64,000 nt of DNA, from NCBI GenBank assembly GCA_032358255.1, contig JAULBX010018857.1, forward strand, positions 1-64,000, given 5' to 3'. The notes under the pieces were generated by a model that did not search any database, was not told the DNA's origin, and saw only the letters and a program-made list of their open reading frames with translations. Both the position numbers and the translations under genes were made by a program. The stretch comes from Heterotrichella gracilis (taxonomy: Eukaryota; Sar; Xanthophyceae; Tribonematales; Xanthonemataceae). Each line of letters opens with the position of its first letter. Position 1 is the stretch's first letter. Positions 330 through 53,087 of the stretch are shown here, in pieces.

Positions 330-1644
330 CTTTGAAGCTGATGTCCAGCATAGCCCCATCACTGATGTTGTACACAAGCACCTCGTCAGAGTCCTCGTCA
401 AGGGACTGGGAGGACTCAACCCCCAGGTTGTAGTTGAAGTCGGCACCAGCTGCGGAGTCCTGCTGCATGAAGGACTGCAGCATGTCTTGCCGTGGCAGGA
501 GCATCACCGTCTTCACGTCGCTGTACCCTGCACATACACATACAGTCAACTCAGAGAATTAACATACAGTCATGTTTATGATATTGATTGCAATTCTGCT
601 GGCAGAAGGACTGGGGCATGTGTCCCTGGGGCAGGAGCATCACGGTCTTCACGTCGCTGTACCCTGCACGCCACAATATCTACCATAATATCTACCATAT
701 AGCTTACCATTTTAAGAGAACTGTAATATAAAAGTCCAGATGAATGTTATTATAACAGAACTAGTACAAGCGCAATCACAGATTTGCTGGCGGTCTGGCT
801 GGGGCATGTGTGCTTGAGGCAGGAGCATCACTGTCATGTAATTTATCATACATTTATCCTGACTACCAACACTCAAGCAGACAACCTACCTAGGGAGAGC
901 CCCACTCCCAGCTTGTATACTGTGATGAAGGAGGGCGCAGACCACCTGGGCCTGCCCCGCTCATCGTCATCCAGCCGCGCAAACACCATGCCCCACCCGC
1001 TCAGGTAGGAGAAGCCAAAGCCCATCCTCTCGGTGTTCAGGATGCAGATGCCCTGCAAAAGAGGTGCATGGGCAGTGTTTAGGGTTTAAGGTTCACAGTA
1101 CAGGGTTGCCATCTGGGTGTGCACGGATGCAGGTGACCTGTGCAGGCACACAGCTAGCGCATTCTAGGGTCTAGGGTCTAGGGTCTAGGGTTTAGGGTAC
1201 CTGTGCCCCCTTCAGCACCTCGGTAGGAAGCATCCAACTGCTTAGGGTATAGGTTTTGGGTATAGGGTTTCGGGTCTAGGTCTAGGGTTTTGAGTACCTG
1301 TGCCCTCTTCAGCACCTCTGTGGGCAGCACGCTGTCCTCCAGTTGTCCAACTGCCTAGGGTCTAGGGTTTGGGTCTAGGGTTTTTAGGGTACCTGTGCCT
1401 TCTTGAGCACCTCCGTGGGCATCACGACGTCCTCCAGGTCGTCCTGCGGGGTGGTCATGCGGTGCAGCCAGCGCAGGCACTTGGTGGTGTCCACGTCCAG
1501 GCGCTTGGAGGCGTCGTCGGGCATGTGGTAGGTCTTGGCAAGCTTGCGGTAGCCGTACCACTCGCTGGGCATGGGGCGCTCGGCAGGCACCTCCATGTCT
1601 GCCACGGGGGTGGAAGCCATGGTGTGGGAGGTGGGTCCAGCCAA
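330..1644 (-). CDS. SYLF (Ysc84/DUF500) lipid-binding domain protein, 3' end missing
   Basis: Exons read on the minus strand are 1393-1644, 890-1052 and 330-527, with GT-AG junctions in phase; later exons would lie left of the window. The second exon gives GICILNTERMGFGFSYLSGW, then GMVFARLDDD and RWSAPSFITVYKLGVGLSLG, the typical core of SYLF domains, which bind phosphoinositides and in yeast Ysc84 also actin. The third exon (KTVMLLPRQDMLQSFM) matches the following SYLF segment. The first exon is a hydrophilic leader without a clear signal peptide; the Met at 1644 or the nearby Met at about 1620 could start translation. Odd points: a LINE fragment lies 135 bases beyond the last visible exon, and two exon edges are repeated inside the introns. 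The family call is firm; the role in the cell is inference. Confidence 0.8.
611..835 (-). repeat. Two echoes of the SYLF third-exon acceptor edge
   Basis: Bases 611-668 repeat, with few differences, the start of the exon ending at 527, including the acceptor (tgcag then ggtacagcgacgtgaag), and still encode YSDVKTVMLLP. A third, weaker copy lies at about 786-835. Both are in the intron upstream of the true exon, so they could serve as alternative acceptors. Confidence 0.75.
1160..1450 (-). repeat. Triplicated exon end plus donor of SYLF exon 1, spaced by TTTAGGG-like runs
   Basis: The true exon end (1393-1450, minus strand, reading DVVMPTEVLKKAQ then gtaccc) is repeated at about 1297-1345 (DSVLPTEVLKRAQ then gtactc) and 1197-1240 (LPTEVLKGAQ then gtaccc). 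Each copy keeps the reading frame and a usable GT donor. Between the copies lie degenerate TTTAGGG/TCTAGGG arrays. This looks like stepwise tandem duplication of a roughly 100-base unit. Confidence 0.8.
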
Positions 1645-2334
1645 GTGGAGGCTGCGCAGGCTGGTGTTACTTTGTGTTCGGTGTTGCTGCTGCTTTGCTG
1701 GGTGCTGTTCCCTGTTTTCTGCTCCTGCTTTCCAAGTGGGGGCTGTGCAGGCTGGTGATGTATGTATTGGTGTTGCTGCTGCTGTGCAGGTTGGCGGGTT
1801 TGCTGCTAGGGTTTGCTGCTGCTGTTGCTTCCACGTCAGCGGTGTGCAGTAAGGTGGGGCGAGGCCAAGCTGGTGCTGTCTAGGGAGGCGACGGTCAAAA
1901 CTGCCCAGCTGTTAGTGCGTTGAGCGGCTGGTGTTCTCTCAAGAAAGCCAGGTGTCGAGGCGTGGGTCTGAAGCCTGGCGCAGAACCTTTCGGAAGCTTG
2001 CGAGGTTTTGAATTTGGGTCTAAGTGGGGTTTAAATTTTCCCTGGCCAGAGGTGCAACACAATATGTATGCGGTACTCACGGCCAGGCGCGCTTGACGTT
2101 GCGAGGCAGGGCTACAAACCAGAGCACGGAAACCTGGCAACACCTGTTGTCGACAGAAGAATGGGCACGTTGCCCATAACCGCAAACCCATATGCATGCA
2201 CTCAGGCAGCCGAGTGAACGTTTGCATGCTTTGCCCAGCACTTGCCCGCTACCAGCACTTACATACTCTTCCCGACGACTTTCCACTGGTTGATTGATAA
2301 ATTGGTTGCGGTTTCACATGCCGCGACTGGCGTC
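1645..2334. promoter_or_regulatory. Shared upstream region of divergent SYLF and mut-7-like genes
   Basis: This 690-base stretch separates two divergently read genes and so should hold both promoters. It contains an imperfect tandem duplication (about 1636-1700 and 1727-1795, both with a gaggctg/gggctgtgcaggctggt block followed by gttgctgctgct). No TATA box stands out and I see no convincing coding sequence. Confidence 0.4.
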
Positions 2335-5300: not shown

Positions 5301-8143
5301 CAGCGATGTTTTGACCTCGAGTCCCCCCCACCCCAGTCCCAAACTCATACAGCAACAGGTTTGCACAAGTCTCGGGCGTCAGCTTCACTTAAACGTATCG
5401 ATACATCGTTTTCGCGAGGCGCTCTGTAGAGGAGACATGTCTGCAGGCACTGCATTTCGCATGTGAACTCGGATGGCCAGGTTTGGGTAGGTGCGAGGCT
5501 CGAGTGCAGCAAGGGTACTACCTGTAGCCCAAATAAGCTTTCAGGCAGTACCTCATAGCACCGTGCTCAACAATATAGCCTCACCACTGGCACACTAGGT
5601 GCATGGCATGGGTTTGAAACCTCGTTGGTTCTCTAAGGCGATTTTGCGCAGGGCGACGTTTTTGCGCAGGGCGACGCAGGAAAAGTTTCTATAGGTCAAG
5701 TTCTCGTGAAAGCAGTCCATAGGCAACACGGCAGACCTCCTACAAGTTTGTTTGATATTGGGTACGTTGCGACATGCGATGGGGGTAGTGTCGCACGATA
5801 CAAAAGCCACTGCGATCGGCGACGCAATCGGTGCCCATCGGTTCAAGACGTTCACATACATCCTAACCAACAACGCCAGTGTCTGTAGCTGCTTAAACGG
5901 TCGTAAGGGTGGTTGTTTTACTGCTGTTTCGTGAGGGTGTGCAGATCTGCACATTCGGCGCGAAAGGGTTAAAATCCAGGTGGTTTCTGTGCATGCGGTG
6001 GGTTTTGACTGCAGAGCCTCCTGGTGCAGCGGGTGGCGCAACTTCGCAATGTCCACATTCTACTTTCCCGACTCTGCAATTTTCTGCAGGGCCTCCTGGT
6101 GCAGCGCATGGCACAATCTCCCAATTCCCCAATTTTGCCATTTTGCCATTTCCCAGTTTCCCAACGTTGCAATCCGCAGGGCCTCTTGGTGCAGCGCGTG
6201 GCGCAATCAGGGGACGCCGCCCAGGCCGAGGTGCTGCGGGACCAATTCGGTTTGGATGTGGCGCTCACCGCTGTGGGGGCTGAGGCGCTGGCGGCGCACG
6301 AGCAGCACCGCAGGCGTGTCTACCTGCAGCTGCCCCTGCCTGCGGTAAGCGTGTGTGTGGGGTTGGCTGGGCACCATACGTGTGGGTGTTGCAAGCTAGA
6401 AAGGTAAATAGTGGTCCTATCATCGTGTTATTACCTTTGGTGGTGGTGGGTGGGGGAAGTAGGGAGGGCGGCGCTGCCAGGTGACACATTGTACGTCGGC
6501 ATATCAAATCGTAAATGCTTTTGTAGCATTTGTGAATGAGTATAGCTAGCTTTCTCTAGGATTTAGGGATCCAATCACTGATTTGCTTAAAAGGTGGCAA
6601 AGCGTTTCTCTGCTTTTACCTTGAGAAGGCTGAAACCCTAAAACCCTCTTGGTGTGCAGGAGCGGGTGGTGTTTGTGGGCAGCGAGTCGGACATCCCCCG
6701 CGCCGCACAAGCCCTGCAGGCCGCCCAGGTGGTGGGGCTGGATGTGGAATGGAAGCCATGCAGCGTGGCGGGGTCGGAAAACCCAGCAAGCACCTTGCAG
6801 GTGGGGGGCTAATACCCTGGGATCTTAACCCTAAACCCTAAACCCAAGCAGCGCCTTGCAGATGGCCATGGAGCATTGATACCCTGCAACCTTAACCCTA
6901 AACCCAGTGAGTACCTTGCAGGTGGGGTACTACTACCCTGCGACCTAAACCCTAGAGCTCCCTCCTGGGATCGCCCCACGCCAATATGTATAGTGTCACC
7001 TCTTGCATACAAACATGACTAATAACGAGAATGTAGATTAAAATGTATTCAACATTACATGTGTTGCCTTGCAGGTTGCCACCCGAGAGGAGGTGTTCAT
7101 TTTCGACCTGCTCACCCTCAACAGCTCCCCAGCCCTGGACCAGTGCCTGGCCTCCCTCCTAGGGTCTTCCCACATTATCAAGCTTGGGTGCGGGTTGAGG
7201 GGGGACCTGGCCAAACTGGCTGCCTCCCACCCGCACATGGCCGCGTATGGGTGCGCGGTGTCCATGCTGGATGTGAGGGGGCTGTGGCAGATGACTGCGG
7301 CGGGGAAGGCCATGGTGCGTGCGCAAATACCTACAGGGCATACGGTGGATGCTCTCATGTGCTGGCATGCATGGCCGATATCGCCTCATGCAAAACGCGT
7401 GGGTGCACTGCTGCGCTGAAGGGTTATGTGCCACAGCTGCATTTGTGCACGCCAGCAACTCTGGTCCTGTACACCCTCAAGCCCTAATTGTACGCCCTCA
7501 CCCCTCAGGGTCGCAAGGGTGGCTACATCGGGCTGTCATCGCTATCAGAGGCGCTGCTGGGTCGCCCCCTGGACAAATCCATGCAAGCCACCAACTGGGA
7601 GATGCGCCCGCTCACACCCCGCCAGGTGGCTTACGCAGCGCTGGACGCGTACTCGCTCATCATGGTAAGGCTGTGTGCAAGTGTGCAGCTCATGTGGTGG
7701 CTGGGTTATGATGCTCTGCTTTTGGTTGCAGCTGTATGTTGCCATGTTGGGCAGGGGTTCTATGAACGACCTAAGGGTTCTGATGATCCCGTCATTCCTA
7801 TTTTCTCTTCTATCACGCATTCACCCAGATGGGGTGCCCGCAGGTGTACGATGCCCTGCTGGCCAGCAATACCCTACTCGACCCTAAGGGTCAGGGTGTG
7901 CAGGGCCTGATGTTTGGATCAGAGGCCCGCCCCAGGCGCAAGCGGGGCCAACAGGACAATGGCTCAGGGCCGGGGCCAGGCCCTTCAGGGGTGCGGGCAG
8001 ATCTGGGGGGGCGGGAAGAAGGCCCTTCTAGGGTCCAGGAGGATACCGTGGAGGGTATTGTGGAGGTTCGCCAAGGGGACGCGGCAGCAGCCGAGTGCCG
8101 GGGGAGCGACGGGGAGGAGGGAGGTGCGCATGGCGGCATGTGA
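2335..8143 (+). CDS. mut-7/EXD3-like 3'-5' exonuclease (DEDDy family)
   Basis: Eleven exons join in frame to about 606 aa: 2335-2493, 2779-3009, 3314-3442, 3711-3818, 4133-4230, 4536-4629, 6180-6344, 6660-6800, 7075-7314, 7509-7664, 7844-8143. The C-terminal half is a DEDD exonuclease of the WRN/RNase D type. Exo I is VVGLDVEWKP, Exo II lies around IIKLGCGLRGDLAKL, and Exo III is YAALDAYSLIMVYDAL with the tyrosine four residues before the aspartate, as in DEDDy enzymes. The N-terminal half (about 370 aa) is helical and unlike WRN, which matches the layout of C. elegans mut-7 and animal EXD3, involved in small-RNA handling. The tail is charged and Gly/Pro-rich. Start at 2335 is chosen as the first Met before the conserved region; an in-frame Met at 2242 is possible. 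Function in RNA end-trimming is inferred from the family. Confidence 0.85.
4673..5972. mobile_element. Non-autonomous piggyBac-like DNA transposon in an intron
   Basis: The element lies in the intron between 4629 and 6180. It is bounded by TTAA on both sides (4673-4676 and 5969-5972) and by inverted ends: left CCCATTCGCGCCGA, right (reverse complement) CCCTTTCGCGCCGA, 13 of 14 matching. TTAA target sites and ends starting with CCC are hallmarks of the piggyBac superfamily. The interior is 1.3 kb, AT-richer than the flanking exons, with only short ORFs (123 aa plus at 5095-5466, 153 aa minus at 5595-6056) that I cannot match to a transposase, so it is probably non-autonomous. A perfect 14-base palindrome (gtgcagatctgcac) lies just inside the right end. 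Confidence 0.8.
6005..6212 (+). repeat. Triplicated splice acceptor of mut-7-like exon 7
   Basis: Three copies of a block reading gcag, then ggcctcctggtgcagcg, then a ggtggcgcaa-type tail occur at about 6010-6042, 6085-6116 and 6175-6212. The last begins the true exon. Each carries its own AG acceptor and encodes LLVQRVAQ or a close variant (LLVQRMAQ). Only the third continues into the long conserved frame. Confidence 0.8.
6787..6960 (+). repeat. Triplicated donor edge of mut-7-like exon 8 with CCCTAAA runs
   Basis: The exon end (caagcaccttgcag, then gtgggg, at about 6787-6806) recurs at about 6846-6866 and 6902-6925, each followed by 'taccctg..ccttaaccctaaaccc'. The unit is about 58 bases. 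The CCCTAAA block is the plant-type telomere C-strand repeat, here inside an intron. Confidence 0.7.
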
Positions 8144-12742: not shown

Positions 12743-15700
12743 TTACATCGTCAAGCCAGCTGGCATGCCTGACTTGTTGAAGCCTGGGTTGTTGAGTGGG
12801 TTGGACATGAACCTTGCTCTATCCTTGGGCTTCTCAACCATGACAGCCTGCAAAGCACACCAATTGTCAATTGCAATTTCGATGAGAAACTTGTGCAGCG
12901 ACCATTAGCTGCCAGTTGCGCGACAAGATAGATGCAGGTCCTGGCGATTATTCCACATGCCGTGGGAAACCGTGCCGCCATAATCGCCAATACCATGCTC
13001 AGCACTCATCCAGTACAGGCCCCAGCACAGACCGTTCTTTGCTCCATGCACACTGCCAGACAACTCACTAACGCATGCTCTACGACACATCGCCACGCTC
13101 TGCCATCATGAGCACCCCAGCCCCCACCCCGCTGCCCCATGCACATTGCGTCATGATGCACCAATTGTATATTCTGATCGCCACCCTGATCCCCGGCCCC
13201 CACACACACCTGTGTCGTCAACATGATCCCGGCAATACTGCACGCGTTCTGCAGCCCGCTGCGGGTGACCTTGGCGGGGTCCAGCACGCCGGCCTCGATG
13301 AGGTTCTCGATCCGGTCGTACATTGCGTTGTAGCCCATCTCAAAGGGCAGGCCAAGCAGCTTCTCGACAATCACCTGGAATAATGGAGCACTCAAGTCAG
13401 CATTGGACCATTGCAAATTGCCTCCTATTACATTACAAGGCGGAACATCAATACCATAAGAATTCATTGCGCCGCCGGTGCAGAGATGGCGTGAGCATTG
13501 CTAGGACAGGGTTGGTTGGCGCAAGGCATGTAGGGCAGGTTGCTAATCTGACTGTACTGCTGGGATGCATCTGAAGGTCTGCTGTGAGTAGGTACTTGAA
13601 AAAGCAATCTATTGGTAAGAAAACGCTGCGTACCTCGCCCTCAATGCCTGCATAATAATGATAATAATAATAAGTAAACAATGATGATAATCTATATTAT
13701 TTACCTCGCCCTCAATGCCTGCGTTCTCTGCGATGAGCGAGCATGGCGCCACCAGTGACTTGCGCACAATCTCGGCCCCCATCTGCTCCTCGGGGTCCTC
13801 AAGCGTGGCCTTGAAGGCGGGGATGAGCTCGCTCAAGTGGAGAAGCGCGGCGCCGCCACCTGGCAGGAGAAGATAAGAAGTTAAGAAATATTCCTTTGCT
13901 CATGTTTGGGAATAAAACAGGGTGCGTGGGTGTGGTGCGCTGAATTCATGGGTGGGTGGGTGGGGTGGGGGTCCTGGGAGGTTAGCACGCGTGGGTGGCG
14001 TTTGAGCCAGACCATTTGGGGCATCTGGGGGTGTGTGTGCACAGGGCTGCTTACCTGGCACGATGCCCTCCTCCACCGCTGCAAATGTTGCGTTCTTTGC
14101 ATCCTCAATGCGCAGCTTGCGGTCCTCAAGCTCAGTCTCGGTGGCGGCACCAACCTGCAAGCAAGAAGTGGGAAAATTGGTTTGAATTTTATCTATAAAG
14201 AAGATGAAACGGTAGATATAATGAACAGGCAATGGTTTTTTTGGTAGGTGAGTGTGGTGCATGCATGCGCACCCTGCCAGCGGACGGTACCCAGTGTGCG
14301 CGAGGTGTGTGGGAGGCCTTGGTAGCTGTCAATGGGGTGGACGATCCCACCCACCCCCTCCCCCATCCTCACTTCTGACTCTCTCCCCCTCCCCCCGTCC
14401 ACACACCTCATACCCTTTTCCCCCTCACCTTGATGACCGCCACCCCCCCCGCCAGCTTTGCAATCCGCTCCACCAGCTTCTCAGTGTCCTATATACCCAC
14501 TCCCCCACCCTGTCTTTAACTTCCTCCCCCCCCTCACCTTGATGACCGCCACACCCCCAGCCCAGCTTTGCCATCCGCTCCAACTTCTTCTCGGTGTCAT
14601 TTACCCCCCTCCTCCCACACCCACACCTCGGTCCCCCCCGTCCCCTTACCGCCACACCCCCCACCCCACTCAACCCAAAACACACACCTCACACCCTCCC
14701 CTCCCTCATCCCGCCCCACACACAGAATAACCCCCTCCCCCCCTCACCTTGATGACGGCCACGCCTCCAGCCAGCTTTGCGATCCGCTCCGACAACTTCT
14801 CAGTGTCGTACACCGAGTCGGTGCTGGCCAGCTCCTTCTTGATCTGCGCAATGCGCATCTCAATCTCCTCGCGATTGGACTGGTCGGCGATCAGCGTGGT
14901 GGAGGTGTTGGTGATGGTCACCTGGGGGGGATGAGGGGGGGGAATCAATCAACGTTCGTATAACAAACCCCTCTGTACAACTCTCTGTAAGTCCGCGTTG
15001 TGCCCAGCATATTCACATCCCCTGCATGTGGCCATGCAGTTGACAATTGCAAGTCCAATCCCCATTGTATCTCACCGCCCAGCGCTGTGCAAAGCATGAA
15101 ACCCTCACCAGCACGCTAAACCCTCACCTTGCGCGCTGTGCCCAGCATGTCCACGGTCGCCTCCTCCACCTTCATGCCCAGGTCCTTGGCGATGTACTCG
15201 GCGCCTGTCACGATGGCAATGTCCTGGAGCAAGGGGAAAAGCGGGTTGGGGGGTGAAAAAGAGGCAAAAAAAGAGGAAACACCTGTTTATACCGTTCCCA
15301 GATTATAAACTTTTTTTTCTAACTGTTGAACGTCCCATATTTGGTAGGCACCACCACGCCCAGGTTGGAAGACTACACGCCTCTGCCCCATCCTCACCCC
15401 ACTGCATCCATGCGCAGCAACGCACCCCCACCCCTCCCCAGGCCTAGCCACAAAGCCGCACACTCTTGCCACCACCCGCACACCATCCTCCACAGCCCCA
15501 CCCCTCTGCACCCACGCGCACCACCCACCCATCCCATCCCACCACCACCACCACCCCGCCACCTGCGGCAGCGCCTCGTCCCGCATCCGGATGCCCTGAC
15601 TGCGCACACATTCGCCATCCGGCACAGCTCGACTCCCACCCCCACCCCCACCCACCCACACCCCGACCGCCCCACCCCATTGCACTCCTCACCCCATCCC

Positions 15701-15890
15701 ACAACCACCCCACAAACCGCCATGGCAGCGCATCCTCCCCATCCCCCACAACCACCACCACCACCACGTCCCCAACCCATCGCTGCAGCGCCTCTCACCA
15801 TACCCTGCACCCTACAGCCCACCCACCTGCAGCAGCGCCTTGCGCCTCTCCCCGAACCCTGGCGCCTTGATTGCGCACACGTTCACGATC

Positions 15891-15922
<32 letters not shown>

Positions 15923-18886
15923 GGCCTCTCCCGTGATGTCCTCGGTGACAATCAGCAGGGGCTGGTTCAGGCGCATGACCTGGTGGGAGATTTCAAAAAG
16001 CATGATCAGGAAGTTGATTACAAGATCAGCATGCATCAGGAAATGCATGGTCAGCATCGAGACTATCCTTGACGATCACTGCAGTAGCTGATGTAGATGG
16101 TGAGATAGTGATCACCATCGAGGCCCTATGGAAATAATCATCACTGAAATGGGTATGATCAGCAGTAAGGCTGGTTCATGCACGTCACCTGCTCCAGGAT
16201 TGGGATCATCTCGCTCACGCGCTCCACCTTCTGGTCAGCCACCAGCACCCGGCAGTTCTCAAACTCAACAAGCATGCGCTCCTGCAGGAGGGTACATGGT
16301 GGGTTGGTGGGTGGCATGGATAGACGGGCATGGAGAGGTGGCTGTGCATGCATGGTGGTCAGTGCCACTGCGGGACACATCGGCCACATCAAATGGCGCT
16401 TACCATGCAGTGATGCATTCAATCTCATGCCAGTCGCTCGACGCAGGACCCGCGGCGCACCTGGTTTGTGGTCAACTGCGGCAGGATGTCACCCCCTGTC
16501 AATGTCAAAACCCTAAAACCCTAGATTTGCACGCACCTGGTTTGTGATGAACTGCGGCGAGATGTAGCCCCTGTCAATCTCCATGCCCTCCTGCACCTCC
16601 ACCACCGTCTCAAGGGAGTTGGAGGACTCGATGGACAACACGCCATCTGCGCCCACCTTGTCCAGCGCATCGGCGATCATCTGGCCGATGGCCTCGTCGT
16701 TGCCGGAGGAGATGGTGGCCACGTTCTGCGATAAGGGATGCGCACTCAGTGGAGCATTTGTATAATTGTGGTGATCGATTCTTCATCAAAACTACTGGTG
16801 CCATCATCGCCAACTTCCATCAGTACCATTGGCGCCACATGCACGCGTATTACCGCCAACAACATCACCATTCCATGCTCCAATCCCTGGTCATAAGATG
16901 CATGCACTGGTTAAGATGGGCAATGCCTGGGCTGAATGCATGTTTACAGCTTTGTGCGTCCCCCGCTGGCCTCACCCGATTGACACATGCCTGAAATAAG
17001 CACGCACTGCATCCAATGCAATGCGGTGTATGCGCACCAGTCTCCAATCCCAAGGAGGGTACTGAAGGGCATGCAAATGCCATGTCGCCGCATGCTGCCG
17101 CATGGAGTGTGCTGACCCTTGATCCCATGTGGTGGCAAAATGTAATGCACCACAGGCAGCGTAATTTCTCTCCCTCCCCTCTGCTTTCTCTACCTTCTCT
17201 TCCTCAACCAATGCTTGTCTTTGGCATAGGTATTTCCCCTTTCGTTCTCAATTTGAATCAAAATGTTATAACCTTGAATGTCATTGCTGCCCTTCATTGG
17301 ATCACATATTATTGCCTAAATGTGATTCTGTTATGCATTTATTTACGTGATCGCATCCCTTACCTTGATGTCATCGCTGCCCTTGACTGGCTTGGACAGC
17401 TCCTTGAGCTTGCCCACCAGGAAGTCGCAGGTCTTGTCGATGCCCTTCTTGATAGAGATGGGGTTGGCACCCGCGGTCACGTTCTGAAGCCCAAACTTGA
17501 TGAGCTCGCGGGCCAGCACGGATGCGGTGGTGGTGCCGTCGCCGGCGGAGTCGTTCGTCCTGCCTGCAACCTGATGGGCAGGGGGGCACGTGGGCAGGGT
17601 GAGCTTTTTCCTGTCTACTTTTCCTTTGCAGATTGTGTTTTTTCACTCCCCATCGTTTCTGGGAGAAAGGGTGTGCATGCATTCCACCAGCAATCTGGCG
17701 CGGGGGTCACCACATGCGCATGGCGAGCATAGTGGTGTGCCTGTGCAGGTATATGCATCTACCTGCTCCCAGATGCAGGTGGTGATGATGCAATGTGATG
17801 CAAGAGAATTCCACCCATGCATGGCCATGCAGGCATGCAGATTATGGTCAACGCCATGCAAGCCACATGCGCCGTCCTAGAATGCGTGTGCACTGGCGTT
17901 CAGCGCAGGGTATTGAGAGCTGTGTTTGGCTGGATCACATACCTCCTTGATGAGCTGTGCTCCTGCGTTCTCAACTGGGTCCTCAAGCTCAATGGCGCGG
18001 GCAATGGACACACCGTCGTTGATCACCTGGGACACACATGGTGCAGACTTATTAGCTTCTCTTGCCAACCCAATCGGGAAACACAGAGTCTAGTGTGAAT
18101 CATGCGTTCAGAGTTACGCGGAGGGATGAAGCACCTTGCAAATTGTGCCAAGCCCCTACACATAGTGCTAGTTATGCAGGCGATATGCTCCCCTGCGACC
18201 CAATGCTAGTCATACAAGAGATGGATTGCAGCACCCCCTATATCCACTAGTTGGTAGCCTATCTATGCACACCCTCTAGACACACGGTGCCTAATAGTAA
18301 TGTATATATGCAAGGGGTGCCTCACCTGGGGCACGCCAAATGCCTGCTGGAGCACCACATTGCGACCTGCAGCAAGGAAGCTTGTTTGCTTGGTAAAACT
18401 AGTCATGGGAATAGGGTTCAATTGCAGCAAATGCACAGCTCGAGGCGTACCCCTGGGCCCCAGAGTCACGCCCACGGCATCGGCTAGCTTGTTGATACCA
18501 TCTTGCATCCGCTTGCGGGACAGGTCGTCAAAAACAATCTCCTTTGCCTCAGCACGGGTGACCTGCATCCAGTTAATATATTAAACAGGTCTGTTTAGGC
18601 AAAACTACTGGAGTACCAGCCCACCTCCCGCCCACGTCGTTCTAGACCCTGCTTTGCAAAGGGTGTTTCTAGAACCACGACACCCACCCACCACCCACAC
18701 ACACTTACCAGCCGGTTACCGTTGCGCACTGCGCGTGCAGTTGGCTTGCATTGCTTGGCCACGTTGCTGCCAACAAAGGTAGACTGCTTCAGGTTGGCGG
18801 TCTGCGTGGAAGCATATGCAAGTCAGTTCGGACACAACCACATGGTATAGTGCGAGTCCGAGCGTCCTAGCGACACCCACCTGCAT
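12743..18886 (-). CDS. CPN60A: Chloroplast chaperonin 60 alpha (RuBisCO-binding protein alpha)
   Basis: Fifteen exons in frame give about 590 aa: 18881-18886, 18709-18801, 18451-18562, 18326-18366, 17943-18026, 17364-17570, 16537-16725, 16189-16281, 15827-15979, 15128-15223, 14748-14921, 14055-14154, 13705-13859, 13210-13374, 12743-12847. The group I chaperonin signatures are present: [14 protein letters not shown], the ATP-site loop [80 protein letters not shown] and [18 protein letters not shown]. Sequence choices such as ARAIELEDP and [20 protein letters not shown] follow plastid alpha rather than beta or mitochondrial Hsp60. The N-terminus (basic, Ser/Thr-rich) fits a short plastid transit peptide. 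The product folds RuBisCO large subunit in the stroma as part of a CPN60 alpha/beta 14-mer. At least five exons have echoed edges in the introns. Confidence 0.93.
13635..13725 (-). repeat. Echo of a CPN60A donor edge
   Basis: The block tacctcgccctcaatgcctgc occurs at 13632-13652 and again at the true exon end (13702-13722). On the minus strand both read ..GIEGE then GT donor. An AT-rich ataataat run lies between. Confidence 0.75.
14424..14815 (-). repeat. Triplicated CPN60A exon end and donor
   Basis: The true exon 3' end (14748-14815, reading [20 protein letters not shown]) has two imperfect upstream-numbered copies at about 14427-14493 and 14537-14603, each with the caccttgatgaccgcca core that includes a GT donor on the minus strand. 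Long C-rich spacers lie between. Confidence 0.8.
15300..15826 (-). repeat. C-rich CPN60A intron with a decayed exon echo
   Basis: This intron is strongly C-rich on the plus strand, with many CCCACC and CCACCA units. At 15559-15635 it carries a copy of the next exon's end: cacctgcggcagcgcctcg, then gactgcgcacacattcgcc, against the true cacctgcagcagcgccttg and gattgcgcacacgttcacg at 15824-15890. The 248-aa plus-strand ORF across it (15326-16072) is a composition artefact. Confidence 0.65.
16456..16585 (-). repeat. Echo of CPN60A exon end (SPQFITNQ edge)
   Basis: Bases 16458-16500 (cacctggtttgtggtcaactgcgg..) copy the true exon edge at 16534-16580 (cacctggtttgtgatgaactgcgg..). The two are separated by accctaaaaccctag, a telomere-type block. 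A similar donor echo for the preceding exon is at 17272-17310 against 17361-17395. Confidence 0.7.
18636..18681. other. Small intronic hairpin in CPN60A
   Basis: The arms gttctagaccct and agggtgtttctagaac pair across a gctttgcaa loop, in the second intron near the gene's 5' end. Function unknown. Confidence 0.4.
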
Positions 18887-37587: not shown

Positions 37588-37614
37588 GGCTCTTTGTTGG
37601 CTTGCCGCCTTTCC

Positions 37615-38490: not shown

Positions 38491-38559
38491 TGCCATCCTG
38501 GTTGATACAGGTACAGCCACCCCAGCTCCCATGAATGCTGACATGACGATGATCAAATG

Positions 38560-39899: not shown

Positions 39900-41000
39900 A
39901 CCTCCCTGTCCTGCCCCAGTGCCAGCAGCTTGCCCCCCACCGCTTCAAAAATGCCCGTCACCAAGGCCATGCTGCTGGCCAGGTTCAACATCCGGCGGGT
40001 CTTGGTCTGGTGCAAGCTGGCTCGCGAGCTGAGGGACAAGCAGACAGATGTAGGGTGGGTAGGGGAACCCTAAATCCTAAACCCTAAACAGTGCAGGGAC
40101 CTGCGCACACAGGACGCTGCAACCAGACCTGCACCATGCCTCAGGCATCCACACACACAGCAGCAGACAGGAACAAGTAGCAGTTGGTCAACGTTGTCAC
40201 GTGGCATTGCAACATGCATGCATCATGGCCCCCACACAAACGTTGCATCCGTTGCATTCAACCACCCATGCATACACACCCACCAACCCACGCACCTTGC
40301 GCTGCTGCTCCGCACTGTCCAGGGTTTATGGTTTAGGGTTTAGGGAAGACCGGCACCTGCTCCAGGCACAGGTCTCGCTCACGCAGCGCTGCAGCCTGCT
40401 GGGCAACAATGGCCAGGGTTTAGGGTTTAGGGTTTAGGGTAGACCAGCAGCATGTTGGGCGACAATGTCACCCCTTGCAGCCTGCACCTCATGCGCCTTG
40501 GCCAGCATGGTGGGTGCTGCTCGTAGAGGCCTTCTCGTATCAGCATGGCGAACATGGCCATGGCCTGGCTTCTCTACCATGGTGGATCGAAGCCAGGCCA
40601 TGGTGGGTGCTGCTCGTAGAGGCCTTCTCGTAACAGCATGGCCATGGTCTGGCTTCTCTACGAGCAGCACCTGGCCCGCGTTCACCTCATGAAGGTCAGC
40701 CCAAACCTTAATGGACTGGCGTTGGGACAGGGCTGTGCTCGCTGCTTCAACAAGAGTGATCCCAGCTGGCCTCCTGTCAGCCCAACAATCCTGCTGCATA
40801 TTTCCCCCCTCGCCGCTGCAGGCTGTAGTTGCGATGGCTCCTCCTGCTTGCAATTCCACCTTCCTGGATTTGGCTGCACACGTGGATGTTGGTGAGCAGC
40901 GCTGTGTCGTCATTGGGTGTCCATGCAGAATGCTCCCAAGCTCAAGAGCTGACAGCACATGCTTCCTGGTTTCAGGGCTGACAGAATGCTCCTGAACCTT
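39900..41000. repeat. Unresolved repeat-rich stretch with CCCTAAA/TTTAGGG runs
   Basis: Telomere-type runs lie at about 40066-40088, 40320-40345 and 40415-40440. A direct repeat tggtgggtgctgctcgtaga followed by ggccttctcgta is present at 40508-40540 and 40599-40631, with inverted pieces of the same text at 40650-40670. Minus-strand snatches such as KAHEVQAARGDIVAQ and IVAQQAAALRERDLCLEQ look like echoed exon edges of a coiled-coil gene, but I could not assemble a gene. Confidence 0.45.
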
Positions 41001-43099: not shown

Positions 43100-44791
43100 A
43101 AGGTTTTCATGGTTGCCATCGCTGCAGACCTGCAACAACCTTCAACCGGGGCGGAGCGGCGTGTATCGCAACATCACACGCCCGCATGGCCCAAAGGCTT
43201 GGGCATGGGCCTCAACAACAGGGGCACAGGGCCAAGCAGATAAGAGGGCTGCCAGCCTTCAGCCCTTAGGCGAGTTTTAGTGTTCTGGCCTTTATGCAAC
43301 GTAGTGGAAGCGTGACTAGTAGTGTACGCTTATAATACTCCAATACTTTAAATAGCAAGGGTCGTGTGTAAAATACATGGGTGGTGTTTGAACCTACCTG
43401 TGTCTCCCTTGCAGTGAGTGCATTACCAATACTGTGCTCTTGCCAGTACCGTGCTCTTGCTGAGTACTTGCTCTTGCCAGTACTGTGCTCTCTGCAAATG
43501 TTAAGTGTGCTCTCTTCGCAGGCTTCCTGGCGTGGACCAGGCGACGCTGACCACGCCTCTCCCACCCTGGCTGGCTTCTCACCCAAACTGATGGGGGGAT
43601 TTGTTGCCAACGGCATTGGCACGTTGCTGCCCCGTGCGTTGATACCACACCTGGAGCACTGGCCCGCACAACAGCAGGTGCGCATTGCTCTGCACTAAAA
43701 GGTCTAGGGGTTGAGGCTGGCGTCAGTGTCAGTCATAGCAAGTCACGCAGTGGTGCCGCAAGCAGGCAGGTCATAATGCCAAAACTTACCGGTTTTAATT
43801 CTAGTACCATATGGACTGTAATTATTCTATATTTACTATGGTTCAAGTCCACGTACCCGTCCCAAAATGTTTACACTACCGTGATCGGACGGTTATTATA
43901 TGTACCTTTGCCCCCACCCGCGTTATGACCTGTCTGCTTTCGGCACCACTGCGTGACTTGCTATGCTGCACTTGTAACAGCCACAGCACTTGAGCCTCAA
44001 GCTGGGGACGTGTGGCACTTCTGATCTAGCAGAGTTCTGTGCACGAGACCGTCACTGGCAAGGACATGCATGGGCTGTGAGCCTGCCGCAGCCCCCTTGC
44101 GGTATATTGGTACCCTGTCCAACGCCAACTTTGTGCTTCTTGCAGGGGGCTGTCCACTTCGGATCGGGTTTTGCATGGGTGGCTGATGTCCACTGCTTTC
44201 ACTTATCAAGAGTACCAGCAGGAATTGAGATTGGAGGCGATGGATGAGGCGTATATTGAGGCGCTGGAGGCTCAAGCGAAGGCCATTGCTGCGGATCGCA
44301 CAGTCTATGTAAGTCAATATCCTGTGTCTTTTTTCCTTCGACTGTGCCAGTACCCTCTTGTGGCTCACCTGTTTTCCATGGCTTGCTGTTTGGGTATGGT
44401 GATTTTCCCTGGTGCAGGTGTGCTCACGTTCTTGAAGTCACCCTAAAGCCTAAACCCTAACCCCCAAAACCCCATCCCCTAATACATAGTTGTGAAGGAG
44501 TGTGGTGGCTGGGTGCAGGTGGCGGCGCTTGTGGACATGGAACCCGTCAGCAGCAGGGTTGGCAAATCAGTCGGGGAGCTGGAGGAGGCCATCAAGGGCA
44601 GTGCCAAGGCCCTCAAAGCCTACGCGCTGCAGTGCCTGCCAACAAGCCTGACGGCCACCCACAAACTCGCTGCGGTTGAGGTGGAGCTCCCTGACGACGT
44701 CACCTACAACTTAGACGATTTTGCAGATTACGATCTGGGCGACGTGCTGGACACCGTGGTCACCATCCGCGTGTACCTGGAGAGCCAGTAG
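43100..44791 (+). pseudogene. Paralogue of the unrecognised gene (copy B), N-terminal part decayed
   Basis: Exons homologous to copy A are at 43522-43677 (52 codons, same length: SPKLMGGFVANGIGTLLPRA), 44146-44308 and 44498-44791. The C-terminal exon is fully open and ends at the same place (KLAAVEVELPDDVTYNLDDF, VTIRVYLESQ). Against it: the first-exon start codon of copy A has no counterpart (about 43125-43268, where the frame meets a tag), and the third exon is out of step by two bases before LMSTAFTYQEYQQ. So either copy B is a pseudogene under slow decay or it uses a different start, with the membrane segment lost. The conserved open tail argues that some product was kept for a while. Confidence 0.6.
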
Positions 44792-46390: not shown

Positions 46391-49300
46391 TCAGATGTCA
46401 TCCCGCTTAAAGAAGTACAGGTAGCCCAGCTCCCTTGGAGGGTGCTCCGACACAGCCACCTTCTCGTCGTTGAAGATCACCCAGCGCCCGTCCTGCAAGC
46501 AGGCAATGACAGCATATGTCACTTTTCATCATGATCAGGGGATGGCGGCCAGGCGTGCGCTTAAAAAACTGTCATTGAAAACTAATCAATGGGATCAGGC
46601 GTGTACAGTGATATCCAAACATGATGAGCTATGCACATGCCATGCCGACATGATCAACTCCTTGTGCTTGCCCGCCACTAGAAAGGGCCATATTCACCAC
46701 TGTCTCTCACCTTCTTGACGTGACAGACATAATGTCCACAGGCGGTGTTGCTCCCCATGTGGCTGATGATGCCCACCAGGCTGTACTCCCCCTTGTCGTC
46801 ATCGGACTTGGCTGCATCCCCGGCACCAGCACCAGCACCAGCACCAGCACCTGTAAGCCATGTGCACTTGTGTCACAACTTCACGCCATTGGCCCATCCT
46901 TTGTGCTGCAGCAGCCGCAGTGCTGCACAAAGGATGCTAATGCTGTCCATCCATGTGCCAGCCCCTTTGCAGGGCACCGCATGCTGCATGGTCCAGGCTG
47001 CAGAATACACAGCTTGACAAACAAACAAACAGAAAGGTAATCTCAGCCGTCGTGGGCTTATCGCCTTGTGTGCCACAGCTTCACCTGTATACATGTTGAG
47101 CTTTCAAAAACAACCCACGGCAAGCCTCACCTTGCGCTTGGCCCGCCCCCATGACCGACGCCACCGCACTCCCCAGGTCATCCGCGTGGCTGAACAGCCA
47201 GTCGGCCGCGCGCTCGATCGACCCGCTGCACGCCTTGAGCGCTGCCTGAGCCTGCTCCTGAGTGAACCCCATGGAGGAGAGCATGGACAGCGCCTCGGGG
47301 TCAAAGGCCTCGGGGGCGGCGCCTGCACCATGTGGGCAAATTGAAAGGCATGTGCGCTGTTATTTCTAAAGCCCTAACTAGTACTTCTCCTCAACCTGTG
47401 TAGGGTCAGATAGATTTTAGCCCCTGCCTGAGCCTGCTCCTGGGTGAGGCCCATGGAGGTGAGTATGGACAGCGCCTCGGGGTCAAAGGCCTCGGGGGCG
47501 GCGCCTGCGCAAAGATGCCAGGTGGGCAAATGTGAAATGATGTAGGATTTCATTTTGCTACAACCCCCATTCCGTGTCCTCCATGTGGCTCAACACCACT
47601 CCATGCTGGGTAGCTGCAGCATTTTTAAGAAACGTAACCACTGCCATGGGCGCGGACGGGGCGGCAGCGTACGCACTACCTACATTGCCACTAGCTAGCT
47701 GCCAGTGGCTACGCCCCCACTCTAAGTTTTTATCTTTTATTGAGAAAAACTCATTCAAAAACATACGGTAAACAATTTCATTATCTTGGCTCCCAGAGGT
47801 AAAAAGACCCTTTCACCCACCTGAGGTTGAAGGCGCCGGCAGCGGGTCGTTAAAGTCCGCGTCCTCCATGTGGCTGAACACCCACTCCATGCTGGCCTCG
47901 GTGGAGGCGTTGTTGGTGGCCACCGCCGCGCGCTTGCTGCCGTTCTCAGAGAAGCCCATGGCCATCAGCTGGGACACCATGGCGGGGTCGGGCTGCACTG
48001 CGGGGGGGGCGGCCGAGGCGGCGGGGGCGGCGTCGCCGTCGCTGGGCTGGAGCTTTTCGTCGGGCTGCGTGAAGCGAGGGTTTAGGGTTTAGGGTTTAGG
48101 GTTTAGGGTTAGGGTTTAGGGGAAGGCGGTGTGGGATGGGAGTTGAAAGTTGAAAAAGGGTACAAAAAGGTGGGTGAGGACAAAGTTAAAAAGGGGGTTT
48201 GGATGGAGGGTTTCAAGCTGCAGGAGCTCCTTTGTCAAATTTGTGCACAGAGGCACAACCCCTGTGGCACCGATGCCCTCACCATGGTTAAGCGACAGGT
48301 GCCCAGACACCCCTTATCCATGTACGCTTTCAGGCAAGCACAATGTAGGGGTGCCTCCAGGCAAATCCAGCTGACCCCTTACCTGTGGCCCGTATCCCCT
48401 CAGCGCCTCCAGCGACAGGTGCTCCGGCACGTCCATCATCACCTCAACCTCCTTGGGATGGCCTAAAATATACGCTGCATGCCTATTACTAGCCCCAACA
48501 CTGATCTATTTGGACGGGGAAAAAGCACAAAATAAATTCTACTGTAGCAAGCCAACCTGTGTGCTAACCTGGGCAGATCCCCACCTGTGGCCCACATCCC
48601 CTCAGCCCCTCCAGCGACAGGTGCTCCGGCACATCCACCAGCACCTCCATCTTCTTGGCGGTCCAGTCGGGGGCCACGTAGTAGCGCTTGAGCTGCACCA
48701 CCATGTAGGGGGGCATGCTGGCAAGGCGCGCACGCTTGGTGGCCTGCGCGGTGCGCCTGCCCAGCGCCGCGCTGTGGTAGCCCTCCATGGTCTCGTCCCC
48801 GGCAAAGCGCTCCAGGCAGGCGGAAAAGGGCACCTTGGGGATCACCGGGTCCTCCTTCGCATCCTGAGATGGAGTGGGCGCTGTCAAGGGGTGTGATGAA
48901 GCATGATTGTGGGATGGTGTAGTGCGGCCTAGCTTTATTGGTGATCAGCGTGCATCTCCTGCTGTGGTATCCCTCCATGGTCTCATCCCCCGCATAGGGC
49001 TCCAGGCAGGCGGCGAAGGGCACCTTGGGGATTACCAGGTTCTTTCTTTCGGGTTCTTTCTTGCATCCTGAATGGAGCATACTTGCTAAGGGGTTTGAGG
49101 GTGTAGATCAGCCTCAGTTGTCGCCCAGCATGCAATCCCCTTCAAGATTTGCCACCATGCATTTTCTTGACTGTTGAATCGCATGCAACTCTTGATGTGT
49201 GCCCACCGCGCGTCAACTTTTTAACTGTATTCCTTTACTTTTGTCCTGGGCACATGACCGCACCTTGGCAATGTAGGTTGCTCCCTGCTGCACCCCTCCC

Positions 49301-52300
49301 CCTCCGGACATGTCCGCTGGGATGTATGCAGACGCCTCCTCGGCCTTGAGCTTCTGGCGCTTCAGCTCCCGCTCCTGAACATGATAAAAGAAAATATGAA
49401 CGCGCATACCATTTTCCTAGCATGGGATTCCATTACTTCTTTTGGTGTCCTTTCTCATCTAACGCAACCTACTGTCAAGCCCTTGAACCGATGCAAGCTG
49501 CCACATCAATGATTCAATTGCACTGACATTCATCACGTGATAGATGCTTGTATTGCACATATATGTACTGAACATGGTGCCACAAAGTGCTCATACCATT
49601 CCCCTACCATGAGATTACAAGTGCACAATGGACACATACACTTCAGTGGCCATTGTAAAACGCCATTTAGGATATTTGGAGACATGATTGAGTGGCCACT
49701 TATGGAACGCCACGTGACTACCTGAGTACCCCCTGCCCCTGCATCTTGGTTCTATCAGTACTTATAATGTATGCATAATACCCCTTGGGCCATACCTTGT
49801 AGTCCTCCAGCTCATCCTTGTTGGTAGCTGCCTCAAGGGGGATATCCAGGCTGAGCATGTAGGCGGGGGAGCGCTTGTAGGTCACGCACCCAGACTCCCC
49901 GCACTGTATCCGGTCCTCCAACTCAAACCTGAAGATGTTTGCGGTGGGGTTTGCGTCCGCAAGTGCCGGGATGCGGCTGCCGATGGTGCGCTCCGCCCGC
50001 GTCATCACCTCCTGTAGGTGCTGCAGGTACTCGGCGGCGTCCTGCAGGCAGATGGGATTTATTTACTTACAAGCTGCTGGTTAACTCACATGCATGCCAG
50101 CAACACAGCCATACAGAATATTCGTTTTATAAATCGATTATTTATGTTTAGTAGAAATACCAATTTTGGTTGTTGCAGATGCTGGTGGGTGCCAATGCAG
50201 GAGCCGGGGCTGTGTATCATTACACCTCGCAAGCTGTGGTGCTGTTGAGCAAAATTTGAAGCCAATACAGGCAGGCAGACGAGGAGGACTGGTGTTACCT
50301 GTTGATGAGCCGTTGAAAAATCTGGGTGGTTGCGCCCCACCAGCGTCTTGAAGAACTGGGGCTTCACAGACAGCTGCTGCACGCCGCCAGCCTCTGCACC
50401 ATTGGCTATCGAGCCCTGGGACGGCTCTGGCTCCCCAGTCATGCCTTGTATGAGGGCTAGACCCACCTTGGCCATCTGTACACGATGCAATGGCATCAGA
50501 ATTTGCCCTGTTTACTGCGCCTGCCGACTGCGGTACTGTGCGGATTAAAACACACACAGGGCAGCAGCGGGTGCAAGCATGTGGCAATCATTATCCATTC
50601 AATTTGACCAAGGAGAAGAAACCGTGCAGTGCAGAGGCTTGGTCATTTTAGGCAGAACAGCTACGTGCTTGGACCACGATATCCAACCCATCTCCCCAAA
50701 CCAAAATCGCTGTTCATTTATGTTACTGGCAAGCACCTGTGTTGGAAAGTCGTTGGGCACGTCCTGAGGCGCAGACTGGAAGATGGTGTCTGCGTATGGC
50801 AGGTAGTGCTGCTGCACATGCGGCAGGCTCCACAGCACCTGCAGCACGCTGTTCATGTAGCAGCTGTTGCCCAGGTTGCGCAGGCCGATGTACCTGCACC
50901 AGCGATGTGAGAATCATGCCATCATGGCAGCCGCATAGTAGAAAACGTAGGAAAGGCGTTTATACTTGTAAGGGTGTCCAGCCGAGGGCATGCATGTAAA
51001 CATGCAGCCTGTCTGGCTGCATAGATTTTCAACCTGATATTTCTCAACACACGAAACTTGAGTTTGCCAAGAAAAATTCACAGATGTCTCCAACCTGGGG
51101 CATGCATGCCAGTATAAGTGTAGAACATGCAGCCTGCACCCCACCTAGTCAGAATGTGCCATGGCTAAAAGGTGCTCGGCTGACAGCAGCAAAACATGTG
51201 CCATGATGCCAATGCACATGCTGTTGCTGTAGCATACACTCACAACTCACCCGGGTCCAGACAGCGGCTGCAGCGCTGACCCCGCCTCGGTGATCTTGTC
51301 AAACTCAAACGAGATGTTGAGCTCCACCTGCAGCTCGTCCATGGTCTTCTCGGTCTTCTCCATCTGCATCATGTTGATGCCCCAGTGCGCCAGGTGCTTG
51401 CTTAAGTAGGGGTCGGTGACCATGTCGTTTTCGTCCTCCGCATAGGAGTACACATCCGCCCCATGTGGGGTGATGGTGCCCAGCTTGACCACAAGAGGGT
51501 ACAGCTTGCCGGTCGCCTCGAAATGACGCAGCGCTGAGCCGTTGCCACCGGTGCCATCCCAGTTCTGCATCGAGCGAGTGGCAAATCAGCCCCATTCATG
51601 AAATGCAATATGCATGGAGTAAATTGGAATGAATTGGAATAACTCTGCTGTGGATACCAGGGCAACTACTGGGCCAGTTCCTAAGCATTATGCAATGAAC
51701 GCAGCAAGATCAAGGCTAGCGGATAGACCATTGCATTGACTGCGGTTGCATCTACAGACATGACATCCGGATATTACCAAACAGCTTGCTGAATGCCATG
51801 AGCAGTGGTGCAATGCACTATGGTTGCAAATCACTGTGCTGCAGCTGCTATTACATATTAATTCCCCACAGCAGCAGATCGTACCTGTCTGCCAGATCCA
51901 ATGTGGCCAGTGGACAGGTTCAGCCACAGGTTCTCTGTAGCCCCTGTGTCCTCGCATTTCCACAAAGAAGGGTTTGACGGGATGGTGCGGCCGTTGTCAA
52001 GCTGGGGCAGGTCCTTTGCGTACTTGCTCTCTTTGCGCTCCTCTTCCCACATGGCCACCGCCTCCTGGGATGACGCACTGTCATGTGCCTGCACCAAGGG
52101 TGACACTCAGGAAGTTGCGATTTAGGGTTAAGGGTTTAGGGTATATGCCTTTCCTCCCACATGGTCGCAGCCTCCTGGTATGAAGCAGGTCACGCGCCTG
52201 CACCAAGGTGACACTCAATTAAGTTGCGATTTAGGGTTTTAGGGTTTACGCTCTTCCTCCCACATTGCCACAGCCTCCTGGGATGATGCACTGCCATGCG

Positions 52301-53087
52301 CCTGCACCAAGGTGACCCTCAGGACCTGTTCCCTTGAACCGTTCGCCATGGGGGCACACTCCTCGACTATATTGAGTAGGATATCCGCTTACCATGATGG
52401 CATTGATGGCGCCAATCACGAGCTCCGGAAGGTCTGGGCATGGCAGGGGCACCCGTATGTTGTCAGGCCACACAACCAGCTCGTCCACCTTCTCTATCTT
52501 GTACTCCTTCTTGTCCACTTGGAAGCCAGACGTCCCCCCGATAGCCAGCTTTTGGGGCTTGGCGTCCTGGCTCTCCTTCTCCTCTTCAGCCAGTGGCACC
52601 TGGAACACAACAGGTTTTTGCTGATGCACGACAATTGCAGGAAACAGGCTTTTGCTGATGCATGACAATTGGAGGAAAACAGCTTTGTGCTGATGCATGA
52701 TAGTAAGACAGCTTAAGCCCTACTGTTGGCTCACCCGGTGCCATTTCTCGTGGAGGTACAAGGCGTTCCCACTGCGCGCATGGTCCAAACCCACGAATGC
52801 CTCTCCAAAACCCTGCATACAGAGCCACTTCTTCAGCCTACTGGAGCAAACAAACCAGTACAAGGAACAAGTCAGGAGCTATATATCCTCATTGGGGCGT
52901 CCCAAGGAATGTAGATCACCTGGAAAGTTTTTATGTTGATATACAGGCCACCCTTGCTCTCAGGCGTGTCAAAGCTGAACATGCACTCGTCTTTGTACAC
53001 ACGGTCATAGTGGCCTGGGGGCTTCAACCCTTTCATGTGCTTCCTCACAGCATCTAGTGCTGCCTCGGTGGCCATCTTGCCTACCAA
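46391..53087 (-). CDS. UBP14: Ubiquitin carboxyl-terminal hydrolase 14 (UBP14/USP5, isopeptidase T)
   Basis: Fourteen exons in frame give about 872 aa: 52920-53087, 52735-52812, 52393-52599, 51885-52088, 51251-51564, 50737-50893, 50299-50475, 49796-50041, 49264-49374, 48585-48863, 47821-48064, 47131-47322, 46711-46850, 46391-46492. Order as in USP5: N-terminal variant UBP finger ([20 protein letters not shown]), ZnF-UBP ([17 protein letters not shown], then NWDGTGGN), Cys box ([18 protein letters not shown]), two UBA domains ([20 protein letters not shown] and [20 protein letters not shown]) inside the catalytic domain, His box ([15 protein letters not shown]), and end [12 protein letters not shown]. 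The enzyme disassembles free polyubiquitin chains. Odd: in the ZnF-UBP three of the four expected zinc ligands appear replaced (K-C-E-D-T instead of K-C-x-x-C, I-G-S-G-R instead of I-L-C-G-R, N-G-S instead of N-N-H), although residues of the ubiquitin-tail pocket look kept. Confidence 0.94.
47420..47660 (-). repeat. Echoes of UBP14 exons 11 and 12 (UBA parts)
   Basis: Bases about 47424-47508 copy the start of exon 12, including acceptor and gcctcggggtcaaaggcctc, and read [20 protein letters not shown] against [20 protein letters not shown]. Bases about 47573-47650 copy the end of exon 11 (tcctccatgtggct, then caacaccactccatgctggg). Confidence 0.85.
48065..48120 (-). repeat. Telomere-type array right upstream of a UBP14 acceptor
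   Basis: In gene sense this is an array of about six CCCTAAA/CCCTAA units ending in ctcgcttcacgcag, the acceptor of exon 11. The array includes ctaac, a good branch-point match, about 40 bases from the acceptor. Confidence 0.85.
48380..48462 (-). repeat. Echo of UBP14 exon-10 end
   Basis: It copies the true edge at 48582-48655: cacctgtggcccgtatcccctcag against cacctgtggcccacatcccctcag, and continues in frame as [20 protein letters not shown] with a GT donor on the minus strand. Confidence 0.85.
48955..49075 (-). repeat. Echo of UBP14 exon-10 start
   Basis: It copies 48777-48866: ggtatccctccatggtctca, then ctccaggcaggcggcgaagg, then caccttggggattacc, against the true ggtagccctccatggtctcg, ctccaggcaggcggaaaagg and caccttggggatcacc. 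A gcatcctg acceptor context is retained at its right end. Confidence 0.85.
52135..52325 (-). repeat. Two echoes of UBP14 exon-4 start with TTTAGGG runs
   Basis: The block 'ctcctcccacatggccaccgcctcctgggatgacgcactg..cctgcaccaaggtgac' of the true exon (52040-52105) recurs at about 52150-52216 and 52252-52318, each next to gcgatttagggtt-type sequence. Each keeps the cctgcaccaag acceptor. Confidence 0.85.

Follow-up and report, generated by a model that had tools for sequence, protein, structure and literature searches.

Duplicated exon edges and telomere-type repeats near predicted splice sites in the xanthophycean alga Heterotrichella gracilis

In mammals, telomere repeats are inserted at breaks, and a duplication was found alongside the insertion at 6 of 130 rodent and 4 of 25 primate loci (10 of 155; PMC2246262). 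Small tandem duplications also arise in human and mouse cells when CST-Pol alpha-primase fills in 3' overhangs (PMC8355091), and in the potato RdRp gene a tandem duplication across an intron-exon boundary gave rise to a new intron (PMC4974935). Here, we describe a 64,000-nucleotide stretch of the Heterotrichella gracilis genome (bases 1-64000 of contig C189; the window), in which exon ends are repeated imperfectly, together with their predicted splice sites, in the neighboring intron. A first-pass annotation of the window had noticed these echoes and called them a feature that it could not name. This was overstated, since both boundary tandem duplication (PMC4974935) and telomeric insertions at breaks (PMC2246262) have been published. 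It also overlooked the telomere repeats that lie at many of the junctions and crowd splice sites. Each of these processes is known separately, but their combination at splice sites looks new. In our survey of literature on telomere repeats with introns, splicing or breaks, on tandem duplication and on intron gain, no concentration of telomere tracts at splice sites appeared among the titles and abstract beginnings listed, in a collection that leaves out most subscription journals.

The window resembles each of the described systems in part. As with mammalian interstitial telomeric sequences (PMC2246262), a repeat that very probably is the species' own telomere unit occurs at internal sites, sometimes with a duplication, and in one case (44438-44475 versus ~37273) a paralogous site is empty. 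Unlike those sequences, as far as the accessible text of that report goes, the tracts described here sit almost exclusively in predicted introns, are crowded around splice sites and are linked to small tandem duplications of exon edges. The small tandem duplications themselves are like those made by CST-Pol alpha, a complex that doubles as the telomere fill-in machine, but the latter followed induced breaks in human and mouse cells, and the accessible part of the account reports neither telomeric filler nor an exon-edge bias (PMC8355091). The potato duplication likewise spans an intron-exon boundary and inherited acceptor, tract and branch site; it concerns a single gene, and the available text does not mention a telomere repeat (PMC4974935). 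Unlike that intron gain, most of the echoes described here seem to lengthen introns that already existed. In plant promoters, telo-boxes are a known case of short telomere-like motifs linked to genes (PMC10167121), whereas here such motifs occur at predicted 3' splice sites, with a strand bias and also as tandem arrays. Finally, introner elements, in the portion of the source at hand, are intron-linked repeats too (PMC7789003), but no dispersed family was found here in the 264 kb compared.

Imperfect direct repeats and the bias toward exon edges

The assembly comprises 68.5 Mb in 903 contigs. Unless marked genome-wide, all statistics rest on the window and a second sample of 200 kb (C771:1-200000), together 264 kb; the second contig had surfaced among genome matches and is a small, non-random sample. 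Genes were predicted with a model written for this work and self-trained on the same sequence, so that all splice sites are predictions. It yielded 600 introns with a median length of 237 bases and a splice consensus resembling CAG/GTGNGT at donors and TGCAG/GT at acceptors. The set of well-supported introns varies slightly between scripts (322 to 347). Repeats were called by self-BLAST and TRF with a pair cut-off of at least 42 bits. Thresholds were set in the course of the work, many tests were made, and clusters and words are mutually dependent.

Pairs of imperfect direct repeats 20-820 bases apart were abundant: the window has 32 of them and C771 has 53. Nine other distance bands of equal width per sequence (18 bands) gave 2 pairs altogether. 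The spacing was 50-300 bases in 77 of the 85 pairs, which group into 59 clusters (23 in the window, 36 in C771). In the best pair of each cluster ~84% of the aligned columns are identical, which speaks against assembly error. Exon sequence was echoed in 31 of 347 introns, whereas shuffled exon-intron pairs predicted fewer than one. When the CPN60A and HISN6 models were aligned to solved structures, one copy proved superfluous in each, and several echo copies are open and in frame, as had been claimed. Small direct tandem duplications, as in the CST-Pol alpha case, are therefore present.

The repeats that the first-pass annotation had listed by gene were largely recovered (Table 1). All those described for SYLF (two), the mut-7-like gene (two) and HISN6 (three) were found, as was one of the one or two attributed to the Gln-rich gene. 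UBP14 has five instead of four; the fifth, at 52032-52324, lies in the UBP14 model between zinc-finger domains. The annotation had also listed the 3' end of a WW gene, but Pfam showed no WW domain in any of the ten proteins submitted. Two of three GDPD sites were detected. For CPN60A, five sites had been proposed; three passed the cut-off, and a further pair at 13631/13702 (21 bases exact) stays below it.

We then asked how these duplications lie relative to exons. A cluster was counted as edge-spanning if one of its copies crosses, with at least 10 bases on either side, the boundary of an exon that has support from outside that copy. This was the case for 30 of 59 clusters, compared to a mean of 18.6 in circular shifts (P 0.001). 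Clusters free of such supported exon DNA were rarer than expected (10 versus 24.5), 2 were exonic (4.1 expected), and 17 of the 59 fell into none of these classes. With intergenic stretches and introns longer than 700 bases removed, 27 of 51 clusters in the gene-dense parts were edge-spanning (18.6 expected, P 0.006) and 5 lacked exon DNA (16.5 expected).

As a second approach, we searched each adjoining intron for a copy of the 60 exon bases that flank its splice site, with 60-base stretches of intron interior as control. A copy was found for 30 of 694 exon edges but only 14 of 1011 interior stretches (odds ratio 3.2, p=0.0003; 2.3-fold per kb of target). The annotation had allowed that such repeats might prove no commoner at exon edges than inside introns; they are commoner. 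Eight of the 14 interior matches fall in introns without an exon echo. Among copies at least 85% identical, the numbers were 24/694 and 8/1011 (odds ratio 4.5), and at 90% or more, 8/694 and 2/1011. Within long exons, edge and exon-interior gave 2 and 0 of 127, a sample too small to use. Taken together, the edge bias is real and roughly two- to fourfold by most measures. The proposed anchoring of the repeats at splice edges thus holds as an excess, but it is not exclusive to exon edges.

Telomere-type tracts in duplications and near splice sites

Tracts of CCCTAAA/TTTAGGG with at least 9 exact bases occurred 113 times, compared to a mean of 13.1 and a maximum of 20 for 40 permuted units. Genome-wide, three exact units gave 834 matches (overlapping ones counted separately) and the reversed control none. 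Arrays of six units are present on 16 contigs, and on six of these (C70, C140, C526, C609, C717 and C770) they start at base 4-7. Chromosome ends would place telomere arrays at contig starts. The genome also encodes a telomerase RNA-binding domain, matched in two separate pieces (L029-L030; C626:23723-24513) that probably represent two exons. On the basis of the contig-start arrays and this domain, TTTAGGG very probably is the organism's own telomere repeat.

The tracts are almost confined to predicted introns, which hold 110 of the 113 but only 58% of the bases; 2 are intergenic and 1 is exonic. By sense strand, 70 of the intronic tracts read CCCTAAA and 40 TTTAGGG. Duplication clusters contain 34 of the 113 (8.5 expected), and 20 of the 59 clusters hold a tract, compared to 6.8 expected and a maximum of 17 in 3000 shifts. 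Among the 38 clusters with two copies, the space between the copies contains 9 tracts, the copies themselves 3 and the 60-base flanks 1 (4.4-4.6 kb each). Conversely, an exon echo is present in 12 of 68 introns with a tract and in 19 of 279 without one (p=0.009).

Introns flanked by well-supported exons hold 74 tracts, of which 45 are no more than 50 bases away from a splice site (26.2 expected). Their position depends on the strand. Sense CCCTAAA rotations reach 24.4/kb at 15-35 bases upstream of predicted acceptors, compared to 9.3 near donors and 2.9 in the intron interior, whereas sense TTTAGGG rotations reach 7.8/kb near donors and 1.5 at acceptors, the same as in the interior. At acceptors, 19 permuted word classes stayed at or below 1.9/kb (C strand) and 2.1/kb (G strand). 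A sense telomere word lies within 45 bases of the acceptor in 39 of 347 introns. The words CTAAC, CTGAC, CTCAC, CTAAT and CTAAA are enriched about threefold 12-42 bases upstream of acceptors, and the telomere unit is therefore similar to a combination of the local branch-site motif and a C-rich tract. Sense CCCTAAA tracts upstream of acceptors may serve splicing as a branch-site or pyrimidine signal. Such a resemblance is not supported as the whole cause of the telomere words at acceptors: exact 14-base arrays, which are harder to account for by similarity, also cluster at both intron ends (19 of 28 within 50 bases, a zone that holds ~35% of positions), and donors are enriched as well. A pairing of intron ends through TTTAGGG on the donor side and CCCTAAA on the acceptor side was not supported either, with both present in 5 introns versus 3.6 expected.

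The arrangement was also counted genome-wide, independently of any annotation. Two units of CCCTAAA followed within 30 bases by TGCAGG gave 347 matches, compared to 178 with the order reversed, 172 with the G strand ahead of TGCAGG and 9 when the hexamer behind CCCTAAA was reversed. TGCAGG itself outnumbers its reversed form about sevenfold (588 versus 81 in 264 kb, both strands), so that the contrast with 9 means little and the twofold difference between arrangements is what counts. These counts are not independent: sites at which the hexamer is part of the palindrome CCTGCAGG enter both the 178 and the 172, and a longer array contributes more than one match.

Duplication sites and other features of the window

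Predicted products of the gene models include a Ysc84 (SYLF) protein, a 3'-5' exonuclease, GDPD, PP2C, arginine deiminase, Aha1_N and Vps54_N proteins and a UCH/UBA protein fitting UBP14. CPN60 and histidinol-phosphate aminotransferase were recognized by alignment to solved structures; the best match of HISN6 is PDB entry 8bj4, which we take to be of plant source. The duplication sites and telomere features of the window are collected in Table 1.

Table 1. Exon-edge duplications and telomere-type features in the window (tract orientation on the sense strand where indicated)
Gene or site	Coordinates	Strand	Feature
SYLF	460..835	-	Start of exon 330-527 and acceptor, echoed at 596-669 and more weakly at 785-835
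SYLF	1164..1437	-	Exon end, donor and telomere-like tract, three copies
mut-7-like	6009..6208	+	Acceptor region, three copies, without telomere tract
mut-7-like	6779..6954	+	Exon end, donor and CCCTAAA tract, three copies
CPN60A	14347..14810	-	Exon end and donor echoed in intron; one copy redundant in GroEL alignment
CPN60A	15571..15900	-	Exon segment echoed in intron, 76% identity
CPN60A	16456..16589	-	Exon end and donor, two copies, TTTAGGG-type tract (sense) between
Gln-rich gene	22915..23049	-	Exon end and donor, two copies
GDPD	26071..26417	-	Exon end, donor and CCCTAAA tract (sense), four copies by eye
GDPD	27415..27705	-	Exon segment copied into intron, TTTAGGG tract (sense) between copies
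HISN6	29879..30069	+	Acceptor and exon start, two copies, CCCTAAA tract between
HISN6	30752..31056	+	Segment near exon end echoed; second copy absent from aligned histidinol-phosphate aminotransferase
HISN6	31883..32253	+	Last coding segments echoed, 70% identity
UBP14	47242..47537	-	Acceptor and exon start, two copies, without telomere tract
UBP14	47571..47895	-	Exon segment echoed in intron
UBP14	48381..48658	-	Exon end and donor, two copies
UBP14	48771..49043	-	Segment near exon start, two copies
UBP14, between zinc fingers	52032..52324	-	Three copies of acceptor and exon start, with CCCTAAA tracts confined to the gaps between them
Two adjacent predicted introns	40302..40449	-	Common segment of telomere tract plus acceptor
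Intron 48065-48584	48077..48121	-	Telomere array just upstream of predicted 3' splice site, sense CCCTAAA
Intron 21698-21840	21712..21753	-	Telomere array just upstream of predicted 3' splice site
Intron	44438..44475 (approximate)	+	Telomere-like insertion, missing from paralogous intron at ~37273

All 23 clusters of the window and 14 of the 36 in C771 were examined by eye in sense orientation. Judged in this way, most copies in the window are partial rather than complete sets of acceptor, exon and donor. A whole-exon duplication was seen in C771, where a predicted exon of 69 bases is present in three copies (97507, 97873 and 98198) at distances of 325-366 bases. The AGGT model of intron gain by tandem duplication would place the donor of one copy and the acceptor of the other in one alignment column; at 31883-32253 these two edges do not coincide, in a comparison of a few pairs by eye. 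In the echo at C771 114305-114434, the exon word TTCACCCT leads directly into AAACCCTAAACCC, a telomere-like microhomology; such junctions were picked by hand, without a control.

Further repeats were observed beside these sites. The window contains a segmental tandem duplication (35581-39059 and 42527-46901) of an unknown gene pair plus a C-terminal fragment of UBP14, and the model of this fragment (38553-40508) has an in-frame stop. The telomere-like tract at 44438-44475 is present in one segmental copy and missing in the other, so that its insertion, or its loss, postdates the segmental duplication. Within the same region, the end of a last coding exon with its stop codon (44756-44809) is repeated 681 bases downstream (45437-45490), and the paralog appears to be without the extra stretch. 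A GCACCA/ACCAGC hexamer repeat at 46823-46851 encodes a Gly-Ala run in the UBP14 model and is also found in the truncated paralog (38981-39012). Between gene models, a direct repeat of 70-77 bases with 84% identity lies at 40501-40661. Positions 1-182 belong to a dispersed repeat that matches 24 other places in the genome, and the predicted SYLF exon 71-126 is probably part of it. We take this repeat to be a piece of a retroelement reverse transcriptase from a motif in its translation, but Pfam gave only Ysc84 for the gene model that contains it.

Possible origin of the duplications

The reading that we favor, to which we would give an even chance of being correct, is that the echoes are small tandem duplications from break repair in genes, often with telomeric filler, which survived where the spare splice site falls in an intron. 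A break in a gene would leave a 3' overhang, to which telomerase would add TTTAGGG units. The overhang would then be filled in, as CST-Pol alpha-primase does at telomeres and at breaks with 3' overhangs, and joining of the ends would produce the order copy, telomere tract, copy. In about one third of the detected clusters, telomere repeats would have been inserted at the junction, or would already have been present and copied along. A duplication carrying a splice site would keep the reading frame, with the spare copy falling within the intron, so that edge-spanning events survive, and events, or their survival, would be concentrated near splice sites. Sense CCCTAAA tracts may in addition be kept because splicing uses them. 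The copies, their excess at edges, the association with telomere repeats and the strand-specific position are direct observations, whereas breaks, telomerase action, fill-in and a use in splicing are inferred. The common repair process suspected in the first-pass annotation is supported, although it is not proved.

Several observations weigh against this scenario. No tract of 9 exact bases is present in 39 of the 59 clusters, the comparison of gaps and copies in the 38 two-copy clusters is not significant alone (p=0.066), and in 10 of 18 telomere-bearing clusters examined by eye every copy carries the tract. Tracts inside duplication clusters show no significant crowding at splice sites: 8 of 19 are 50 bases away or less, with 6.7 expected. 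At distances of up to 15 bases there is no excess either (6 of 74, 7.9 expected). The edge excess shrinks to 1.4-fold per kb of target when compared to the deep-interior subset (10/482). Finally, at the one locus where a paralog provides an empty site, the tract is present but no tandem duplication is evident. Moreover, splicing out of the spare copy makes edge duplications tolerable, but tolerance leaves their excess over intron-interior ones unexplained. Breakage or retention must therefore favor edges, and the data cannot decide which.

The tracts might instead have come first. Telomeric insertions near splice sites would then be unstable simple repeats, and slippage or unequal exchange with a similar exon word would have duplicated the segment between them. 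A tract in every copy, including the outermost, fits its presence before the duplication rather than a role as filler, and this was seen by eye in several clusters (e.g., 1164-1437, 6779-6954 and 26071-26417). Tracts outside the detected duplications crowd splice sites too (37 of 55 within 50 bases, 19.5 expected). In three clusters (52032-52324, C771 3995-4171 and C771 114305-114434), however, the tract lies solely between the copies, as judged by eye, and 39 of the 59 clusters hold no tract; both speak against this explanation, which we consider rather unlikely. Between filler and pre-existing tract, the present data cannot decide. Somewhat less probable still is an even origin along genes, with the edge bias produced by survival or detection: events inside exons would be removed, and exon-matched copies or tracts acting as splice signals would stay recognizable for longer. 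The single tract in a predicted exon would agree with this, as would the small excess over the deep intron interior and the strand-specific position at acceptors, which selection on splicing would give. But an even origin predicts equal numbers of edge and interior copies, and the observed rate is two to three times higher at edges. Slower decay of the exon-matched parts is not supported as the cause of the bias, since exon and intron columns are nearly equally identical (84.4% and 84.1%; a weak test, as alignments end where identity falls) and the excess is not weaker among the more identical copies.

Mobile elements of the introner type, known in some algae (PMC7789003, accessible part), would also place copies with splice sites into introns, as observed. 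This explanation is not supported, and we regard it as very improbable. Each echo matches its own neighboring exon, and the 16 non-local self-matches of the window with at least 45 bits consist of 6 telomere-array pairs and 10 pieces of the one segmental duplication. C771 has a single non-local self-match of at least 60 bits, and no match between window and C771 was found at E<=1e-6; thus, the 264 kb compared contain no dispersed family of similar introns. Chance, low complexity or an artefact of the gene model is the least probable origin of all. Although the model was trained on the same sequence and can miscall echo copies as exons, the distance-band controls, the shuffled exon-intron pairs and the rule that exons be supported outside the copy all speak against it.

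A broader interpretation, which we put forward tentatively and as rather unlikely to hold in full, is that exon-intron boundaries in this lineage are hot spots of telomerase-assisted break repair. Every event would leave behind an extra exon edge and a telomere tract, the CCCTAAA strand would be recruited as branch site and pyrimidine tract, and telomerase would thereby be a lasting source from which introns grow and alternative splice sites, and perhaps new introns, arise. Few mechanisms are in contention for the growth and origin of introns, a question that is still open. Should duplications tagged by telomere repeats prove common at the splice sites of one living lineage, telomerase would become a testable source of intron and splice-signal evolution, and if this is true, the telomere tag marks the individual events, which could then be counted and dated.

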